From Clostridia bacterium (GTDB lineage: Bacteria > Bacillota > Clostridia > Lutisporales > Lutisporaceae): a stretch of 64,000 bases of DNA. Shown one piece after another: positions 11,211 to 53,106 of the stretch. The notes below the pieces were generated by a model, which saw nothing but the letters and a program-made list of their open reading frames with translations, was not told the origin of the DNA and made no database searches. Within the stretch, counting starts at the first letter, position 1, and every line of letters starts with the position of its first letter. The stretch covers positions 1 through 64,000 of the forward strand of contig DASPIR010000030.1 in assembly GCA_035628995.1 (NCBI GenBank). Reading direction: 5' to 3'. A program made the translations under genes and the position numbers.

Positions 11211-11240
11211 TTGACAACAAGGCGTATTCTGTATTATATT
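11211..11240 (+). promoter_or_regulatory. Sigma-A promoter of the his operon
   Basis: TTGACA at 11211-11216 is followed, at 17-18 bases, by TTATAT/TATATT (11234-11240). It lies about 45 bases before the leader peptide and about 290 bases before hisZ. Confidence 0.7.
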
Positions 11241-11281
11241 AAGTGAAAACCAACTTTAAACATAATTATGGAGCTGATTTT

Positions 11282-11338
11282 ATGAATACCATTAATTGTA
11301 TGACAAATAGAATGCATCATCATAGGCAGAGCGCTTAA
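11282..11338 (+). CDS. his operon leader peptide (His-His-His)
   Basis: An 18-codon frame starts at ATG 11282, eight bases after a GGAG site (11270-11273), and ends at TAA 11336-11338. Codons 12-14 are three successive CAT (His) codons at 11315-11323. Nothing else in this leader looks like a T-box. The position, between a consensus promoter and a terminator ahead of hisZ, is that of an attenuation leader peptide. The His codons abut strand 1 of the leader fold, so a ribosome stalled there would mask it. Confidence 0.8.
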   Translation: MNTINCMTNRMHHHRQSA

Positions 11339-11417
11339 GCCTTTTTGGAAATTTTCCATGGGCATGAGTGCTGTTTGCGCTTGTGCCTATGGGATGCGAT
11401 ATTAAAAACCCCGTAGG
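11321..11417 (+). promoter_or_regulatory. his attenuator: mutually exclusive leader hairpins
   Basis: Strand 1 is CATAGGCA-GAGCGC (11321-11334) and pairs with strand 2, GCGCTT...TGCCTATG (11377-11391). Strand 2 contains CCTATGGG (11386-11393), which can instead pair with CCCGTAGG (11410-11417), the left arm of the terminator. Strands 3 and 4 form the terminator. Stalling on scarce histidyl-tRNA would cover strand 1, favour 2:3 and give read-through. With enough histidine, 1:2 and 3:4 form and transcription stops. Confidence 0.75.
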
Positions 11418-11446
11418 TTAATTAAACCTACGGGGTTTTGTTTTTT
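11404..11446 (+). terminator. Attenuator terminator before hisZ
   Basis: AAAACCCCGTAGGTT and AACCTACGGGGTTTT are perfect arms around a short loop, followed by GTTTTTT. It lies inside the his leader, upstream of the first gene, so it must be conditional. Confidence 0.93.
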
Positions 11447-11463: not shown

Positions 11464-11490
11464 GTAGGGGCGAACACTGTTCGCCCGTAC
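11464..11490. repeat. REP-like palindrome (GTAGGGGCGA type)
   Basis: GTAGGGGCGAACA and TGTTCGCCCGTAC form an inverted repeat between the attenuator and hisZ. Related copies are at 53054-53079 and 55500-55528. This type of palindrome is widely dispersed in many bacterial genomes. Confidence 0.7.
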
Positions 11491-11527: not shown

Positions 11528-12697
11528 ATGCAAAGTTTTGGAATTCCTCAGGGTATGAGGGATATTCTTACTGATGAAAGCAGCAAAAGAACTATATTGC
11601 AGGAGAGGCTGCTGCATTATATGCAGTCCTGCGGATTTTGCCGTATAGAAACACCGCTGTTTGAGTATTATGAGCTATTTTCCGGTGATATATCACCGGT
11701 TGATGATGAAAGTATCATAAAAACAATAGACAGTGACGGGAAGGTAGTGGTTCTAAGGCCTGACATGACAATTCCAACAGTAAGGGTTGTTGCCACAAAG
11801 CTGAAGGGGCAGCAAAAGCCTTTAAAGCTGTTTTATGTGGGAAATGTATACAGGGCAGATAAGAAAAACCGAGGGACAGGGAGAGAATTTTGCCAGGTTG
11901 GGGCGGAGATATACGGATGTTCCGGTAAGTGGTTGGATTTAGAAATCATAGGGATGGCAAAGGAAAGCTTCAGAGAAGCCTCAGTAACAAACTACAAGAT
12001 TGATATAGGACATGTAGGAATAATCAAAGGTATTTTCGAAGAGCTAGCCATAGCAGAAGAAAAGAAAGTCTATATTATAGACCTGATTGGCAAAAAGAAT
12101 CTGGTAGAACTTGAAAAAGAGGTATCCACCCTTTCAATTAGCAGCAGGCATAAGGAAATAATCTGTAAGCTGCCGCGTTTTTTTGGGAGACCCGAGGACA
12201 TTTTCAAAAGTATTGATGAAATTATAATCAATGATACTGTGAGGGAATCAGCTGACCATCTTTTTGAAGTATGTGAGAAAAGCAGAGAAATGGGTTTGGA
12301 GGCCAATCTTATAATAGACGTTGGGATGACAGGGAATATGAAGTATTATACCGGGTTGATTTTTAAGGCATATGCCCAGGGAACCGGCGATGTGGTGATT
12401 TCGGGAGGCAGATATGATGATTTGCTTGGGAAACTGGGTTTAAATACAACTGCAGCAGGGTTTGCAATATATGTTGACAGTATGATTGAAGCAGCAGCAG
12501 TGGAGAACATGAAGCAGCAGAGGGAACACAAGATATTAGCCATCTTTAGTGACAACAGCTTCATTGAAGCTTTGAGGTATTCTGAAAGCCGCAGAAAAGA
12601 CGGAATAACCGTAAACCTGATAAACTGTCTGGACATATCCGATCCTGAGCAATACTGCAGGCAATACGGTTATGATGAGATATTAAATTTTAAGTAG
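11528..12697 (+). CDS. hisZ: ATP phosphoribosyltransferase regulatory subunit HisZ
   Basis: HisZ is a catalytically inactive histidyl-tRNA-synthetase-like protein that binds short-form HisG and gives it activity and histidine feedback. The 389-residue protein begins FGIPQGMRDILTDES and has class II synthetase-like motifs (VVLRPDMTIPTVR, GTGREFCQVGAEIYG, SGGRYDDLLGKLG). It lacks the C-terminal anticodon-binding domain of true HisRS. The start is ATG 11528 behind AAGGAGAGG. It is the first gene of the operon, directly after the attenuator, and next to hisG as expected. Confidence 0.95.
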   Translation: MQSFGIPQGMRDILTDESSKRTILQERLLHYMQSCGFCRIETPLFEYYELFSGDISPVDDESIIKTIDSDGKVVVLRPDMTIPTVRVVATKLKGQQKPLKLFYVGNVYRADKKNRGTGREFCQVGAEIYGCSGKWLDLEIIGMAKESFREASVTNYKIDIGHVGIIKGIFEELAIAEEKKVYIIDLIGKKNLVELEKEVSTLSISSRHKEIICKLPRFFGRPEDIFKSIDEIIINDTVRESADHLFEVCEKSREMGLEANLIIDVGMTGNMKYYTGLIFKAYAQGTGDVVISGGRYDDLLGKLGLNTTAAGFAIYVDSMIEAAAVENMKQQREHKILAIFSDNSFIEALRYSESRRKDGITVNLINCLDISDPEQYCRQYGYDEILNFK

Positions 12698-12712
12698 AAG
12701 GGAGTGATGGAA

Positions 12713-13369
12713 ATGCTGAAGGTAGCTATCGCAAAAGGCAGAGTGGCTGAAAAGGTAAGTGAGCTTCTGCTTGATACAAGTGACTACGGAAATATAATTG
12801 ATTTAAACTCCAGAAAGCTAGTTTTTATCAATAAGGATAACGAAATAGAATTTTTTATGGTAAAGCCTTCTGACATTCCTGTATATGTAGGAAGTGGGGC
12901 GGCAGATATAGGCATTGTAGGGAAAGATGTACTTATGGAGACTCAAAACCAGGTATATGAAATACTGGACTTGAAAACCTGCAGCTGCAGGATGGTCTTG
13001 GCAGGCCCTTCTGAGAAGCAGCAGGTGAGACCTATAGTTAGAAAAATCGCTACCAAATATCCTAGAATAGCGGCGGAATATTTTAACAGCAAATCAGAGC
13101 CTGTAGAGATAATAAAGCTGGACGGCTCAATAGAACTTGCTCCCATTGTCGGATTATCGGATGCAATAGTTGATATTGTTGAAAGCGGAAAGACCTTGAA
13201 GGAAAACGGACTGGTAGTTTATGAGAAAATTTGTGATATAACTGCGAGAATGATAGTGAATAGGGTCAGCTACAAGATGAAAAACAAAAGTATAAGCACC
13301 TTTGTAGCAGCTATAAGTACGGCCATTGAAGGAGGTGAGACCCGTGCTGAGAATATTGTCATGGGATGA
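12713..13369 (+). CDS. hisG: ATP phosphoribosyltransferase, short form HisG
   Basis: HisG catalyses the first step of histidine synthesis, ATP + PRPP to phosphoribosyl-ATP. At 218 residues it is the short form that needs HisZ and lacks the C-terminal regulatory domain. The sequence KVAIAKGRVAEK near the start and VGSGAADIGIVGKD near 65 are typical. The start ATG 12713 has the best distance from GGAG (12700-12703). GTG 12704 and ATG 12707 are alternatives. Its end overlaps hisD by 26 bases, which indicates coupled translation. Confidence 0.95.
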   Translation: MLKVAIAKGRVAEKVSELLLDTSDYGNIIDLNSRKLVFINKDNEIEFFMVKPSDIPVYVGSGAADIGIVGKDVLMETQNQVYEILDLKTCSCRMVLAGPSEKQQVRPIVRKIATKYPRIAAEYFNSKSEPVEIIKLDGSIELAPIVGLSDAIVDIVESGKTLKENGLVVYEKICDITARMIVNRVSYKMKNKSISTFVAAISTAIEGGETRAENIVMG

Positions 13370-14639
13370 CAAAAGCAGTATGGAGAGCTTTTTAGGACAA
13401 AAGAGCTATAGCTTCATACCTGAAGAAGTGACTGCTGCAGTAAAAAAAATAGTACAAGATGTCAGGGACAGAGGGGACAAGGCAGTCCTTGAGTACAGCA
13501 GAAGGTTTGATAATGTGAAGGATATAGAGGATTTCAGGGTTAGTGCCAATGCCTTGGGGGCTGCTGCAAGGGAAGTAGATAAAAGCTTCATAGTAGCTAT
13601 CAGTAAGAGTATAGCTAATGTGAAAAGATTTCACAAAGAGATGGGCGACAAGGATTTCAACATAGTGACGGATAACGGCAGCGTGCTGGGCAGCAGGGTT
13701 ACTGCCATAGACAAGGCTGCAATATACGTACCCGGCGGAAAAGCCTCATACCCTTCAACTGTGGTAATGTGCGCAGTGCCAGCCATAATTGCAGGAGTCA
13801 GAGAAATAATCATATTGACCCCTCCTTCTGAGGATGGTGATATCAATCCATATGTAGCAGTGACAGCAAAGCTTCTTGGGATTGACAAGGTCTTTCGGAT
13901 AGGCGGGGCTCAAGCGGTGGCAGCAGCAGCTTTTGGCACCAAGACTGTGCCAAAGGTCGACAAGATTGTAGGGCCGGGGAATGCATACGTAGCAGCTGCA
14001 AAGAGAGAAGTATACGGATTTGTAGATATTGACATGATAGCGGGGCCCAGCGAAATTGCGGTAGTAGCAGACAGCAGCGCTAATGCACGCTGGGTTGCAG
14101 CTGATGTTCTATCTCAGGCAGAGCATGATGAAATGGCCAGATGTTTTCTGGTTACTGACTCTGAAGCTTTTGCAGTCAGGGTAAATGCTGAAATAGAAAG
14201 ACAGCTTGCAGGTATGAAAAGACAGAGCATAATTAGCCATGCACTGGCAAATAATTCGGCAGCTATTGTGGTTGATAACATAGAGAAGTCCGCGGATATA
14301 ATAAATAAAATTGCTCCGGAACATTTGGAAATAATAACGGAAAACCCCTTCAGAATATTGAAGGATATCAAAAACGCAGGAGCTATTTTCCTTGGAGGTT
14401 ATTCCACAGAGCCCATAGGTGATTACATCGCAGGTCCCAATCATGTCCTGCCTACCTATGGTACCGCAGCTTTCTTTTCACCCCTTTCAACCAGGGATTT
14501 TCAGAAAAGATCAAGCTTAATATATTACAGCAAAGAGGACTTGGAGGCCTTTGGGCCTGCTGCTATGAAAATTGCTGAAGCGGAAGGCTTGGAAGCCCAT
14601 GCAAACGCATTGAAAGTGAGGCTTCAAAATGATAGATAA
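13344..14639 (+). CDS. hisD: Histidinol dehydrogenase HisD
   Basis: This zinc enzyme oxidises histidinol to histidine with two NAD in the last two steps of the pathway. The 431-residue protein contains [21 protein letters not shown] and [14 protein letters not shown], the family substrate and metal regions. The start is GTG 13344 behind GGAGGTGAGACC, giving VLRILSWDD. An ATG at 13326 in the same frame lies inside the ribosome-site region and is less likely. It overlaps both hisG and hisC. Confidence 0.95.
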
Positions 14640-15693
14640 GTTAGTGTCAAAAAGAGCGCTTGAGCTTGAATGCTATAAGGTGGAATCAAAGACACAGGGC
14701 ATAGCTCTTGATAAAAACGAAATACCTTGGAGTTTGAGTAATAAAGTGGAGGAAGCTCTCATTAAAAAGATTAAAACAATGGAGTTCAACCGATACCCGG
14801 ATAGTGACTGTACAGACCTCAAAACAGCGATTTCAAGGTATACAGGCATTGGTGCTGAATCAATAAGCGTAGGCAACGGCTCTGACGAACTTATACATAT
14901 GGTGCTTCAGGCCTTTATAGACCCGGGTGACACTATAGCTGTCCATAATCCTACCTTCTCAATGTATAAGATATATGGAACAATCTGCGGCGCCAGAATA
15001 TGGGAGTATAACATGGACAGCGATTTTGAAATCAAGCTTGATGAATTTATCGATTGCCTTGAAAAAGAAAAACCTAAGGTTGTCTTTGTATGCAACCCCA
15101 ACAATCCTACCGGCAGAAGGCTTGAATTATCAGAGATAGAACAGATATTGAGGAAGGTCAATGGTATTGTACTTGTGGATGAGGCATACTTTGAGTTTTC
15201 AGGCTTGACTGCTGCAGGACTTCTTTCCAGATATGACAACCTCATAATACTGAGGACATTCTCTAAGGCTCTTGGATTAGCAGCATTAAGAGTAGGATAT
15301 ATGCTAGCCTGCCCATCGGTCATAAGCTATATTGACAGAGTTCGTTCACCATTCAATGTAAATACGTTTGCACAAGCTGCAGCAGTAGAGGTTTTGGAAA
15401 ACCTCGATACAGTGACAGAAAGAATTGAAATATTAAAAATTGAGAGAAAAAGACTTGCTGAACTGCTTACATCTCTTGAAAACCTTCAGTGCTTTGAATC
15501 CTGGAGTAATTTCATTCTGATACGCTCCCCATATGCGGTCGAAATATATAGGAGACTTCAAGCAGCAGAGATTCATATTAAAAGTTTTCCCAACTCTATA
15601 CTTAAAGACTGTCTGCGGGTTACAATCGGCAGCCGCTTAGAAAATGACAAGTTCTATGAAATTGTTAAGGAGGTGCTGTATGAAGGAGCCTAA
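14629..15693 (+). CDS. hisC: Histidinol-phosphate aminotransferase HisC
   Basis: This PLP-dependent class I/II aminotransferase converts imidazole-acetol phosphate and glutamate to histidinol phosphate. The 354-residue protein has VGNGSDELIHM (PLP phosphate region), CNPNNPTGR, DEAYFEF and the Schiff-base lysine in TFSKALGLAALRVGY. The start ATG 14629 overlaps the end of hisD by 11 bases. The C-terminal Arg stretch LRVTIGS is present. Confidence 0.95.
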   Translation: MIDKLVSKRALELECYKVESKTQGIALDKNEIPWSLSNKVEEALIKKIKTMEFNRYPDSDCTDLKTAISRYTGIGAESISVGNGSDELIHMVLQAFIDPGDTIAVHNPTFSMYKIYGTICGARIWEYNMDSDFEIKLDEFIDCLEKEKPKVVFVCNPNNPTGRRLELSEIEQILRKVNGIVLVDEAYFEFSGLTAAGLLSRYDNLIILRTFSKALGLAALRVGYMLACPSVISYIDRVRSPFNVNTFAQAAAVEVLENLDTVTERIEILKIERKRLAELLTSLENLQCFESWSNFILIRSPYAVEIYRRLQAAEIHIKSFPNSILKDCLRVTIGSRLENDKFYEIVKEVLYEGA

Positions 15694-16279
15694 TGAAGAA
15701 AGGACTGCGGAATTATCCAGAAAGACAAATGAGACTGAGGTTTATATAAATATAAACCTGGATGGAAGCGGAAAGTATGATATAGATACAGGTGCTCCTT
15801 TTTTCGACCACATGCTGGAGCAGCTGAGCCTGCACAGCGGTTTTGACCTTGTTGTCAAGGCAAAGGGGGATATAAAGGTAGATTTGCACCATACTGTGGA
15901 GGATGTGGGAATAGTTTTGGGAAAGCTGCTGTATGAATGCACCAGGGATAAGGTCAGTATTGCAAGGTATGGCAGTATAATGCTTCCCATGGATGACTCT
16001 CTTTGTACGACAGCGGTGGATTTTTGCGGGAGGGCAAATCTTGTATACAACTGCAGTACACTGCAAGGCTGTATAGGGGATTTTGACACAGAGAATGTTA
16101 AAGAATTTTTCAAAGCACTTGTAAGTAATTCTTTCATTACCTTGCATATAAACCTGCTGTACGGAGAAAATCTCCACCACAATGCTGAATGCATTTTTAA
16201 GTCGGTGGCAAGAGCTTTAAAAGAGGCGGCGGGCAGGAGCCCTTCGATTGGTGTACCCTCTACAAAGGGGTGTGTATAG
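15680..16279 (+). CDS. hisB: Imidazoleglycerol-phosphate dehydratase HisB
   Basis: This manganese enzyme dehydrates imidazole glycerol phosphate. The 199-residue, single-function form has no histidinol-phosphatase domain. Metal-binding motifs FFDHMLEQLSLHSG and DLHHTVEDVGI are intact, with a second histidine set in LHINLLYGENLHHNAEC. The start ATG 15680 follows AAGGAGGTGCT and lies inside the end of hisC, so the genes are coupled. The histidinol-phosphate phosphatase step must be encoded elsewhere. Confidence 0.95.
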   Translation: MKEPNEERTAELSRKTNETEVYININLDGSGKYDIDTGAPFFDHMLEQLSLHSGFDLVVKAKGDIKVDLHHTVEDVGIVLGKLLYECTRDKVSIARYGSIMLPMDDSLCTTAVDFCGRANLVYNCSTLQGCIGDFDTENVKEFFKALVSNSFITLHINLLYGENLHHNAECIFKSVARALKEAAGRSPSIGVPSTKGCV

Positions 16280-16282
16280 GCT

Positions 16283-16891
16283 ATGAAGCTGGGAATTGTT
16301 GATTATGGTGTTGGTAATATATACAGCCTGAAAAAGGCATTTGAGTATATAGGTGTTGATGCAGTTGTATCAAAGGATGCAAAAGTGCTTGACAGCTGTG
16401 CGGGAATCGTTTTGCCGGGAGTCGGAGCTTTTAGCGATGCTTGCGCTAATATATCAGAAAATGGCTTGGAGGATATAATTCTAGGCCAGGTCGCTAAAGG
16501 AAAATTGATAATGGGAATTTGCCTAGGAATGCAGCTACTGTTTGATTACAGTACAGAAGGGGCTGTGACCAAAGGATTGGGGCTCCTTAAAGGCTGGGTA
16601 GACAGAATTCCCGGCAGCGTTAAGGTTCCTCATATGGGCTGGAATACCCTGCAAAATAAAAATGAATGTAAGGTGCTTTCGGGGATTAAGGATGGAGCCT
16701 ATGTATACTACGTACATTCCTACTATGCAAGAGCAGAGGATAGCGCCAATATATGCGCTGTCAGCAGCTATGGAGACGATATACCCGCAGTTGTGAAAAA
16801 GGACAATATTTTAGGTATGCAGTTTCACCCCGAAAAAAGTGGTGAGACTGGGTTAACTATATTGAATAATATTAAGGAGATGTTGATATGA
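16283..16891 (+). CDS. hisH: Imidazole glycerol phosphate synthase subunit HisH
   Basis: HisH is the glutaminase subunit that feeds ammonia to HisF. The 202-residue protein has the class I amidotransferase triad: Cys80 in MGICLGMQLLF, and His and Glu in MQFHPEKSG. The oxyanion strand LPGVGAF is present. It starts three bases after hisB and overlaps hisA by four bases. Confidence 0.95.
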   Translation: MKLGIVDYGVGNIYSLKKAFEYIGVDAVVSKDAKVLDSCAGIVLPGVGAFSDACANISENGLEDIILGQVAKGKLIMGICLGMQLLFDYSTEGAVTKGLGLLKGWVDRIPGSVKVPHMGWNTLQNKNECKVLSGIKDGAYVYYVHSYYARAEDSANICAVSSYGDDIPAVVKKDNILGMQFHPEKSGETGLTILNNIKEMLI

Positions 16892-17604
16892 GAATTTATC
16901 CGGCAGTTGATATTTATGATGGGAAATGTGTGAGACTTAAAGAGGGAAGTCTTGAAAAGAAGGAAATATTTTATGAAAACCCGGTAGATGCAGCAAAAAT
17001 GTGGGAGCAGAAGGGTGCTGCGGCTTTGCACATTATTGACCTGAATGGTGCTTTCAGCGGGAAAACGGGAAATAGAGCTGCAGTTGAGAAAATAATAAAT
17101 TCAGTAAGAATTCCCGTACAAATCGGAGGAGGACTTAGGAGCATTGCAGACTTAACAGAGGCTTTGAATATAGGAGCAGCAAAAGTCATTATAGGTACCG
17201 GTGCGGTATTGGATGAAGAACTTCTGGAAAATGGCATTGAGAGATATCTGGATAAGATTGCAGTCAGCATTGATGCCGTAGATGGCTTTGTTGCTATAAA
17301 AGGCTGGGTGAATGTGAGCGAATTCAGTGCTTATAACTTCGCAAGCAAAATTGTCGGCAAAGGCTGCAAGAATATAATATACACTGATATTTCCAGGGAT
17401 GGAACAATGAGCGGACCTAACCTTGATGGTATAGAGAAAATGTGCAATGTTGAGGGAGCAAGAATAACCGCCTCCGGAGGGGTAAGGAGTATAGACGACC
17501 TTCTGGCAATTAAGCGTACAGGCGCAGAGGGAGCAATAATAGGCAAAGCCTTGTATGCCGGAGTCATAAAGCTAGAGGATGCCCTTAAGGCTGTGGAGGG
17601 GTAA
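16888..17604 (+). CDS. hisA: Phosphoribosylformimino-AICAR-P isomerase HisA
   Basis: HisA is a (beta/alpha)8-barrel isomerase that converts ProFAR to PRFAR. The 238-residue protein begins [17 protein letters not shown], with the first catalytic Asp in AVDIYDG and the second in [14 protein letters not shown]. Phosphate-binding loops IQIGGGLRS and ITASGGVRS are both present. It sits directly before its paralogue hisF. Confidence 0.96.
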
Positions 17605-17605
17605 T

Positions 17606-18367
17606 ATGCTGGCTAAAAGGATTATACCTTGCCTTGATGTAAAGAACGGAAGGGTAGTCAAAGGTGTTGGGTTTAATAACCTCAGAGAAGCAGGAGATCC
17701 TGTTGAAGCAGCAAGAATGTATAATGCTGCAGGAGCGGATGAGCTTGTTTTTCTGGACATCACTGCCTCTATAGAGAGTAGAAGTACTATGCTTGATGTG
17801 GTGAAGGCAACTGCAAGGGATGTATTCATACCCCTCACGGTAGGGGGAGGTATAGGCAGCCTTGGTGACATTGAGGCACTTCTGCACGCCGGCGCAGATA
17901 AGATATCCCTAAACAGCGCTGCGGTAAAGCAGCCTGAACTGATTGAAGAAGCGGCAAAGAGATATGGAAGCCAGTGTATTGTTGTTGCGGTTGATGCAAA
18001 GCTTAGGGAAGGAGCAGCCGGGTGGGAGGTATATATTCACGGGGGCAGAACCAACATGGGCATTGATGTGCTGGAATGGTGCAAAGTTGTTTATGAACTG
18101 GGAGCCGGAGAGATACTTCTTACCAGCATAGATGCCGACGGTTCTAAGGAAGGCTATGATATCTCCTTAACCTCCAAGGTTGCAGAAACGGTCAATATAC
18201 CGGTCATAGCTTCGGGGGGAGCAGGCAGCAAAGGGGACTTTTATCAGGTGCTTACAACAGGCAAGGCGGATGCCGCGCTGGCAGCTTCACTGTTTCACTA
18301 TGGTCATCTGGCTATAAGAGATTTAAAGGCTTATCTGTCTTTAGCGGGAGTAAGCGTAAGAATATAA
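17606..18367 (+). CDS. hisF: Imidazole glycerol phosphate synthase subunit HisF
   Basis: HisF is the cyclase subunit that uses HisH-derived ammonia to make imidazole glycerol phosphate and AICAR. The 253-residue barrel begins [20 protein letters not shown], with catalytic Asp in CLDVK and in [12 protein letters not shown]. Phosphate loops LTVGGGIGS and VIASGGAGS are intact. The start ATG 17606 follows GGAGGGGTAAT one base after the hisA stop. Confidence 0.96.
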
Positions 18368-18385
18368 TTGATTGGAGAAGTTCAT

Positions 18386-19012
18386 ATGTTTATTGATGAT
18401 ATAAAATTCAACGAGAAAGGCTTGGTGCCTGCGATAGTACAGGACTATAAAACAGGTGAAGTGCTGATGCAGGCATACATGAGCAAGGAAAGCCTGGAAA
18501 AAACATTAGAATCAGGGCGTTCATGGTTTTACAGCAGAAGCAGGGATGAACTATGGCAAAAAGGGGCAACCTCAGGAAACACTCAGGAGGTTAAGGAGAT
18601 ATTACTTGACTGTGACGGAGATTGCCTGCTTATAAAGGTGAAGCAGAAGGGCGCAGCCTGCCATACGGGAAATAAAAGCTGCTTTTACAGAAGCATATTG
18701 GTGGCTGACGAAAGTACAGGAGCTGCAAATATTGGAGCGGTCCTTGAAGAACTGTATAGGAAGGTAGGGGAGAGGCAGGAAAATCCGATACCGAACTCAT
18801 ATACCTGCTATCTTTTTGATAAAGGCATTGATAAGATATTGAAGAAAGTGGGAGAGGAAAGTACAGAGGTAGTGATAGCGGCAAAGAATGAAAACAAGAA
18901 AGAAATCATTTATGAAATATCCGATTTGCTTTATCATTTAACTGTATTAATGAAATATATGGATGTATGTCTTGAGGATATTGCGGGTGAACTTTATAAG
19001 AGATTCAAGTAA
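18386..19012 (+). CDS. hisIE: Bifunctional phosphoribosyl-AMP cyclohydrolase / phosphoribosyl-ATP pyrophosphatase HisIE
   Basis: The 208-residue fusion carries out steps two and three of the pathway. The N-terminal cyclohydrolase (about residues 1-110) has [25 protein letters not shown] and [10 protein letters not shown], with its zinc Cys and Mg Asp ligands. The C-terminal pyrophosphatase (about 115-208) has [16 protein letters not shown] and [10 protein letters not shown]. The start ATG 18386 lies after GGAGAAG; TTG 18368 in the same frame is less likely. It ends the his operon proper. Confidence 0.95.
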
Positions 19013-53051: not shown

Positions 53052-53106
53052 GCGGGCGAACGGTGTTCGCCCCTACCTTCCCCGAAACCCCGAAACCCCG
53101 AAACCC
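53052..53106. repeat. REP-like palindrome plus CGAAACCC tandem repeat
   Basis: GGGCGAACGGTGTTCGCCC (53055-53073) is the GTAGGGGCGA-type palindrome in the opposite orientation. It is followed by three to four copies of an 8-base unit CCGAAACC (53080-53106). It lies between the lipoprotein and glycosyltransferase genes. Confidence 0.75.

Follow-up and report, generated by a model that had tools for sequence, protein, structure and literature searches.

A probable histidine-codon transcription attenuator before a Clostridial his operon, and its likely relatives with exchanged regulatory codons

Ribosome-mediated attenuators are usually seen as gene-by-gene inventions, and T-boxes as the modular tRNA-level sensors of the Firmicutes. 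Histidine leader peptides preceding hisZ and a copy of hisS, where they replace a T-box, have been reported in bacilli (Naville and Gautheret 2010; PMC2965389), and Ashniev et al. 2022 (PMC9413887) describe His leaders before the his operons of 17 Firmicutes, including Lutispora and C. difficile. The same study also lists Peptostreptococcaceae, the B. cereus group and Erysipelotrichales among the taxa, and reports that no RF00514 match was found in Firmicutes. C. difficile hisZ is mentioned by the group of Lyubetsky (in PMC4833913), and Phe/Tyr uORFs lie before shikimate genes in a set of genomes that includes C. novyi (Stav et al.; PMC6429828). Taken alone, the his leader described here is a further case of the Firmicute His-leader attenuators already reported.

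Here, we compare this leader with related RNAs across the phylum. The window (the whole stretch of DNA analyzed, 64,000 nucleotides) holds nine his genes preceded by a leader region, with the following features.

11211..11240, + strand: sigma-70-type promoter, TTGACA at 11211-11216 and TATATT at 11235-11240 with a spacer of 18; 11/12 consensus bases
11270..11273, + strand: Shine-Dalgarno GGAG, separated from the leader ATG by 8 nt, read from sequence; GGAGCTGAT is kept across the genus
11282..11338, + strand: leader peptide ORF MNTINCMTNRMHHHRQSA, 18 codons followed by the stop codon TAA at 11336-11338
11314..11328, + strand: strand A, which holds the His codons; its possible pairing with C would close a fold of RNA that is not being translated; weaker family support, 71% of cells paired
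11315..11323, + strand: regulatory codons CAT CAT CAT, read from sequence; Pro, Tyr/Phe, Leu or Asn stand instead where the downstream gene differs
11330..11342, + strand: strand A2, overlapping the 3′ end of the ORF, stop codon included, and pairing with B; duplex of -18.0 kcal/mol, covariation
11354..11372, + strand: strand B, partner of A2 or C; B:C has 18 pairs and about -30 kcal/mol, covariation
11377..11397, + strand: strand C, partner of A, B or D (antiterminator); C:D covariation
11405..11419, + strand: strand D, the 5′ terminator arm, partner of C or E; folding, covariation
11425..11446, + strand: strand E (11425-11439) and the U tract of the intrinsic terminator; sequence, covariation
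11528..12697, + strand: hisZ, ATP phosphoribosyltransferase regulatory subunit (TIGR00443, 288.7 bits against a cut-off of 271.65)
12704..19012, + strand: hisG, hisD, hisC, hisB, hisH, hisA, hisF and hisIE in this order, the remainder of the operon (NCBIfam models)

The original prediction placed a promoter, an 18-codon frame with three CAT codons and a terminator before hisZ, and every one of these elements is present in the sequence, although the promoter call is a consensus match only, with no transcript data. The leader has what an attenuator calls for at its 5′ side, namely a translatable short ORF with a Shine-Dalgarno sequence, in which codons for the regulated amino acid are clustered. 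The terminator stem joins 11405-11419 to 11425-11439 in 15 pairs, is followed by GTTTTTT, and ends 81 bases before hisZ; the leader as a whole folds far more stably than shuffled sequences (z = -6.1, with 0/200 shuffles as stable). Between the terminator and hisZ, at 11464-11490, lies a palindrome, GTAGGGGCGAACACTGTTCGCCCG, which recurs in the window at 53053-53076. It is a dispersed repeat with 46 genome sites at no more than one mismatch (20 forward, 26 reverse), and its reversed control has no genome site at the same tolerance.

The same RNA precedes hisZ in three genomes of the genus (G001, G004, G005) and three others of the family (G006, G008, G009), all of which share the leader ORF frame with its in-frame HHH, the pairing strands and the terminator, with promoter and Shine-Dalgarno sequence also kept in the three leaders of the same genus. 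Relatives that keep the terminator without the His codons would have told against the original prediction, but every hisZ relative found with this RNA has His codons. The contig of G002 begins at hisZ, so that the leader region falls outside the sequence, and a hisZ of this kind was not found in G003. Judged by this comparison, the arrangement of codons, hairpins and terminator is more than chance.

The pairing pattern is more elaborate than predicted. Exclusive hairpins and a terminator are indeed found, but the 1:2, 2:3, 3:4 scheme does not hold, because it lacks one strand: comparison reveals five pairing strands after strand A (A2, B, C, D and E), not four. A simple four-strand scheme was rejected, as B:C would form whether the ribosome stood at the His codons or at the stop codon, and it is strand A2 that resolves this problem. 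The possible helices are A:C (-25.5 kcal/mol), A2:B, B:C, C:D (-16.0 kcal/mol) and D:E (-26.2 kcal/mol), and A2:B, B:C, C:D and A:C partly exclude one another, which provides mutually exclusive helices that include an intrinsic terminator, as expected of an attenuator. Among 100 aligned members, A2:B with C:D is 87% paired with a covariation score of 0.389 (shuffles score 0.252 and slid partners no higher than 0.134), and B:C with D:E scores 0.475, well above its shuffled and slid controls; the alignment used a model built on B:C and D:E, and leans towards these two helices. Joint covariation of helices that are unable to coexist points to a switch.

Compared by pairwise duplex energies, B:C is no more stable than A2:B with C:D in 89% of members, and in 96% A2:B with C:D is no more stable than B:C with D:E. 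When the window RNA is refolded with the ribosome-covered part removed, B:C and the terminator form at every position of the ribosome edge, and the equilibrium fold alone therefore fails to predict readthrough. Before E exists, the whole-structure energies of the window RNA are -28.5 kcal/mol for A2:B with C:D and -29.7 kcal/mol for B:C, and as these are nearly equal, the choice of readthrough must rest on the order of folding during transcription rather than on equilibrium. That the folding choice is made during transcription is generally accepted for the trp and his attenuators.

We consider it highly probable that the window holds a His-codon ribosome-mediated transcription attenuator. When histidyl-tRNA is scarce, the leading ribosome would stall on the His codons with its 3′ edge just short of A2, leaving A2 free to pair with B and C free to pair with D; D:E would be blocked and the his operon transcribed. 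When histidine is plentiful, the ribosome would reach the stop codon and cover A2, B:C would form, and D, left free, would pair with E to end transcription. With no ribosome, A:C could close around A2:B, C would be occupied, and D:E would form again. Measured in 89 leaders, the distance from the first regulatory codon to A2 downstream of it has a median of 16 nt (range 13-42), and the stop codon stands a median of 1 nt upstream of A2 (range -7 to +21). The leading edge of a ribosome is roughly 12 nt past the first base of the A-site codon, so A2 would stay exposed with a ribosome at the first regulatory codon and be masked by a ribosome at the stop codon; the spacing thus meets the expectation that stalled and terminating ribosomes mask different strands, with the footprint size taken from general knowledge. 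The anatomy and its conservation, the covariation of the four helices in competition, the agreement between codons and genes, and the fixed spacing all come directly from comparison; translation of the leader, ribosome stalling, the argument from the footprint and the sign of the response are inferred, without expression, toeprint or termination data.

A covariance model built from seven his leaders only (R1) and two later extended models (R2 and R3) recover about 100 related RNAs; these come from nine families, of which eight belong to the class of the window. In the family of the window, R1 already matches other genes, including hisS, a short hisZ, a stand-alone HGTP anticodon-binding domain and prolyl-tRNA synthetase (proS), the last with leaders such as MINVNKTQLNSCPGPS. 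Some R1 scores are weak (30-35 bits), as low as antisense matches, and gene identity, position and codons were also weighed. Matches to the models are present in 31/391 genomes sampled from the class, in 52/147 genomes of one family (f40) and in 4/398 genomes of the phylum; of the last, one (G135) is chance-like and one (G824, before hisS) lies outside the class, and the class matches in G135 and G197 are also chance-like. Antisense matches to R1-R3 were excluded as a product of the palindromic terminator, and eight loci (L063, L085, L155, L158, L164, L255, L260 and L261) were judged chance or doubtful on inspection. The window leader scores 106.3 bits against R3 (E = 4.4e-18) and has the A2:B, B:C, C:D and D:E helices and the ORF ending at A2 that define the family. 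The window sequence sits in the R3 training set, however, and independent support comes from the first R1 search and the held-out matches. An Rfam search of 15 family loci gave no family match at these elements.

The regulatory codons follow the gene behind them. Family members precede hisZ, hisS, a probable histidine ABC transporter, proS, aspS, and NSS, BrnQ and ABC transporters, with downstream genes assigned by similarity to representatives (several checked with Pfam) and leader ORFs chosen by Shine-Dalgarno sequence and a stop-position rule that five matches failed to satisfy with any ORF. With hisS, hisZ, the anticodon-binding fragment and the probable His ABC transporter counted as His genes, all of their leaders (55/55) have runs of His codons and none of the remaining leaders does (0/39); restricted to held-out matches outside the R3 training set, the counts are 37/37 and 0/33 (p about 1e-20). 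The models include His-codon columns and so favour His matches, though not the identity of the gene behind. Pro-x-Pro occurs in 6/6 proS leaders and 0/88 others. Leaders of NSS transporters carry YYxxYY or FFFxFF, with LLLL in a third NSS group; those of BrnQ are Tyr/Phe, those of one ABC permease group Phe, and those of aspS have three Asn codons.

Several members show further local features. The attenuator with an Asn-rich leader, MLNFQFIKLNNGYNI, precedes aspS at L092, L093 and L250 (G253, G214 and G370); at L092 a T-box (90 bits, gathering score 93) lies between attenuator and gene, giving two sensors in tandem, and a T-box-like sequence is also visible at L250. For hisS, a T-box in the genome of the window (L262) stands against leader-peptide attenuators in the same family (L046, L048, L049 and L077), a contrast read from the sequences as one sensor having taken the place of the other. 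A stand-alone HGTP anticodon-binding domain of 67 residues (PF03129) lies behind a His-codon attenuator at L059:1655-1855 and L047:1278-1478, and is possibly a remnant of, or a regulator related to, histidyl-tRNA synthetase. At L251 and L252 (G358 and G391) the HHH leader MKIYKLNGNKHHHKI is followed by a probable amino-acid ABC substrate-binding protein, which suggests a histidine transporter. A second terminator-like hairpin follows directly on the first in NSS loci with Leu leaders and in a BrnQ locus with a Tyr leader (L127, L145, L152, L159 and L253), each with a CCTAGG-like stretch in front. In a single case (L137, G436:C4) a member precedes a GNAT acetyltransferase gene and its leader ends SSSS (TCA TCC TCA TCA), codons that amount to the CAT repeat in another frame. 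Shortly past the terminator of an aromatic-leader member (L149, G519:C6), the sequence resembles by eye the start of a group II intron.

These observations bear on four other explanations of the leader. One is a T-box, or some other riboswitch that senses a ligand or tRNA, with an incidental ORF; this has some plausibility, since T-boxes are common on Firmicute amino-acid genes and 23 T-box matches lie elsewhere in the genome of the window, including one immediately upstream of hisS. However, no Rfam family, T-box included, reaches threshold anywhere in the window, and even the permissive Rfam matches at the leader include no T-box (RF00230) match with specifier and AGGGUGGNACCGCG box, as the original prediction had anticipated; a sub-threshold match to the trpB motif (41.3 bits, gathering score 59) was set aside as hairpin-plus-terminator likeness, with the reverse strand scoring 33.5. 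Codon identity that tracks the gene across amino acids and a nearly fixed spacing from codons to A2 are likewise unexpected for an incidental ORF, and we regard a riboswitch as highly improbable. The prediction had also supposed that Firmicute his operons are usually under T-box control, but for Clostridia the HisR repressor is described as the usual and main his regulator (PMC9413887), which would allow a HisR/TrpR-family repressor to control the operon with the leader a vestige. This is scarcely credible given the strong conservation of the leader and the failure to find a PF01371 (TrpR/HisR family) protein, as a HisR regulon would require, in a genome that is 99% complete, with E. coli and B. 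subtilis as positive controls.

It might instead be that what is conserved in CATCATCAT is the RNA strand alone, through pairing of A with C, in a terminator-antiterminator without amino-acid sensing. A:C does pair at 13-14/14 positions in most his-operon members, but it is degraded in the proS, transporter and aspS members, which have their matching codons at the same place, and it is just 71% paired across the family; the His codons themselves vary synonymously (CAT 152, CAC 32). A role for the strand alone is very unlikely, and with its poor support outside His members A:C is best kept as a feature of that group, perhaps serving untranslated RNA. Finally, the his attenuator could be an ordinary one of local origin, its likeness to the proS, transporter and aspS leaders reflecting convergence from terminator/antiterminator pairing rather than common descent. 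Repeated origin of attenuators has been argued (PMC2965389), and R1 members at 30-40 bits do overlap chance and antisense matches. Yet pairing rules leave the bases free, and B and C nonetheless share CATAGGTGCAAG / CTTGTACCTATG across genes and families; KLNN-like residues recur upstream in His, Phe, Leu and Asn leaders; and R2/R3 matches reach 40-115 bits, compared with no R3 match and no HHH leader in 374 kb around 80 hisZ loci of named genomes (near relatives left out). Convergence is thus an unlikely explanation. We think it likely, with less assurance than for the his leader itself, that these RNAs form one homologous family of ribosome-read attenuators, inferred to span at least nine families of the phylum and to have been put to new use before biosynthesis, synthetase and transport genes through codon swaps (His, Pro, Phe/Tyr, Leu, Asn); in this it would parallel the T-box, at times standing in tandem with one or taking its place.

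If true, a homologous attenuator family with exchanged codons would be a second modular system for Clostridia, and would make both codon exchange and sensor replacement (hisS with a T-box here and an attenuator in relatives) directly testable. The leader codons alone offer evidence for the substrates of unannotated amino-acid transporters. The suggestion that this may be an independent or little-described case fails for His-peptide attenuation, which was already published for Firmicutes (PMC2965389, PMC9413887). Of the family with exchangeable codons, no description was found in the open-access literature (subscription papers and supplements were outside the search); a single RNA that joins each of these codon sets (His, Pro, Tyr/Phe, Leu, Asn) to its matching genes could already be described elsewhere.

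Among known systems, the Clostridial cases of Ashniev et al. are very probably the same thing as the window leader: as far as the available portions of that paper go, they have a His-rich leader (3-5 His codons) and attenuator and terminator hairpins before his operons without HisR and T-box, and differ in being confined to his operons, with neither a common RNA family nor any link to transporters, hisS, proS or aspS in evidence there (PMC9413887). The Bacillus leaders of Naville and Gautheret likewise have a leader peptide with His codons ahead of hisZ and of a paralogue of hisS (hisS*), but concern bacilli and His only (PMC2965389). The proteobacterial His_leader, RF00514, shares the His codons, competing hairpins and terminator; the strands of the window leader differ from it in number and sequence, and its score of 28.2 bits falls below the gathering score of 49. 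The uORF attenuator motifs of C. novyi and others similarly place Phe/Tyr, Cys or branched-chain leader codons before amino-acid genes but are presented as separate motifs (PMC6429828, PMC8632094, PMC11109978), and the shikimate-gene uORFs may or may not be relatives of this family (PMC6429828). The T-box (RF00230) fills the same role, with one RNA architecture whose sensing element is swapped to fit synthetase, biosynthesis and transport genes; it senses tRNA binding, whereas the family described here, whose window leader has no T-box sequence or structure, would sense the progress of a ribosome on codons.
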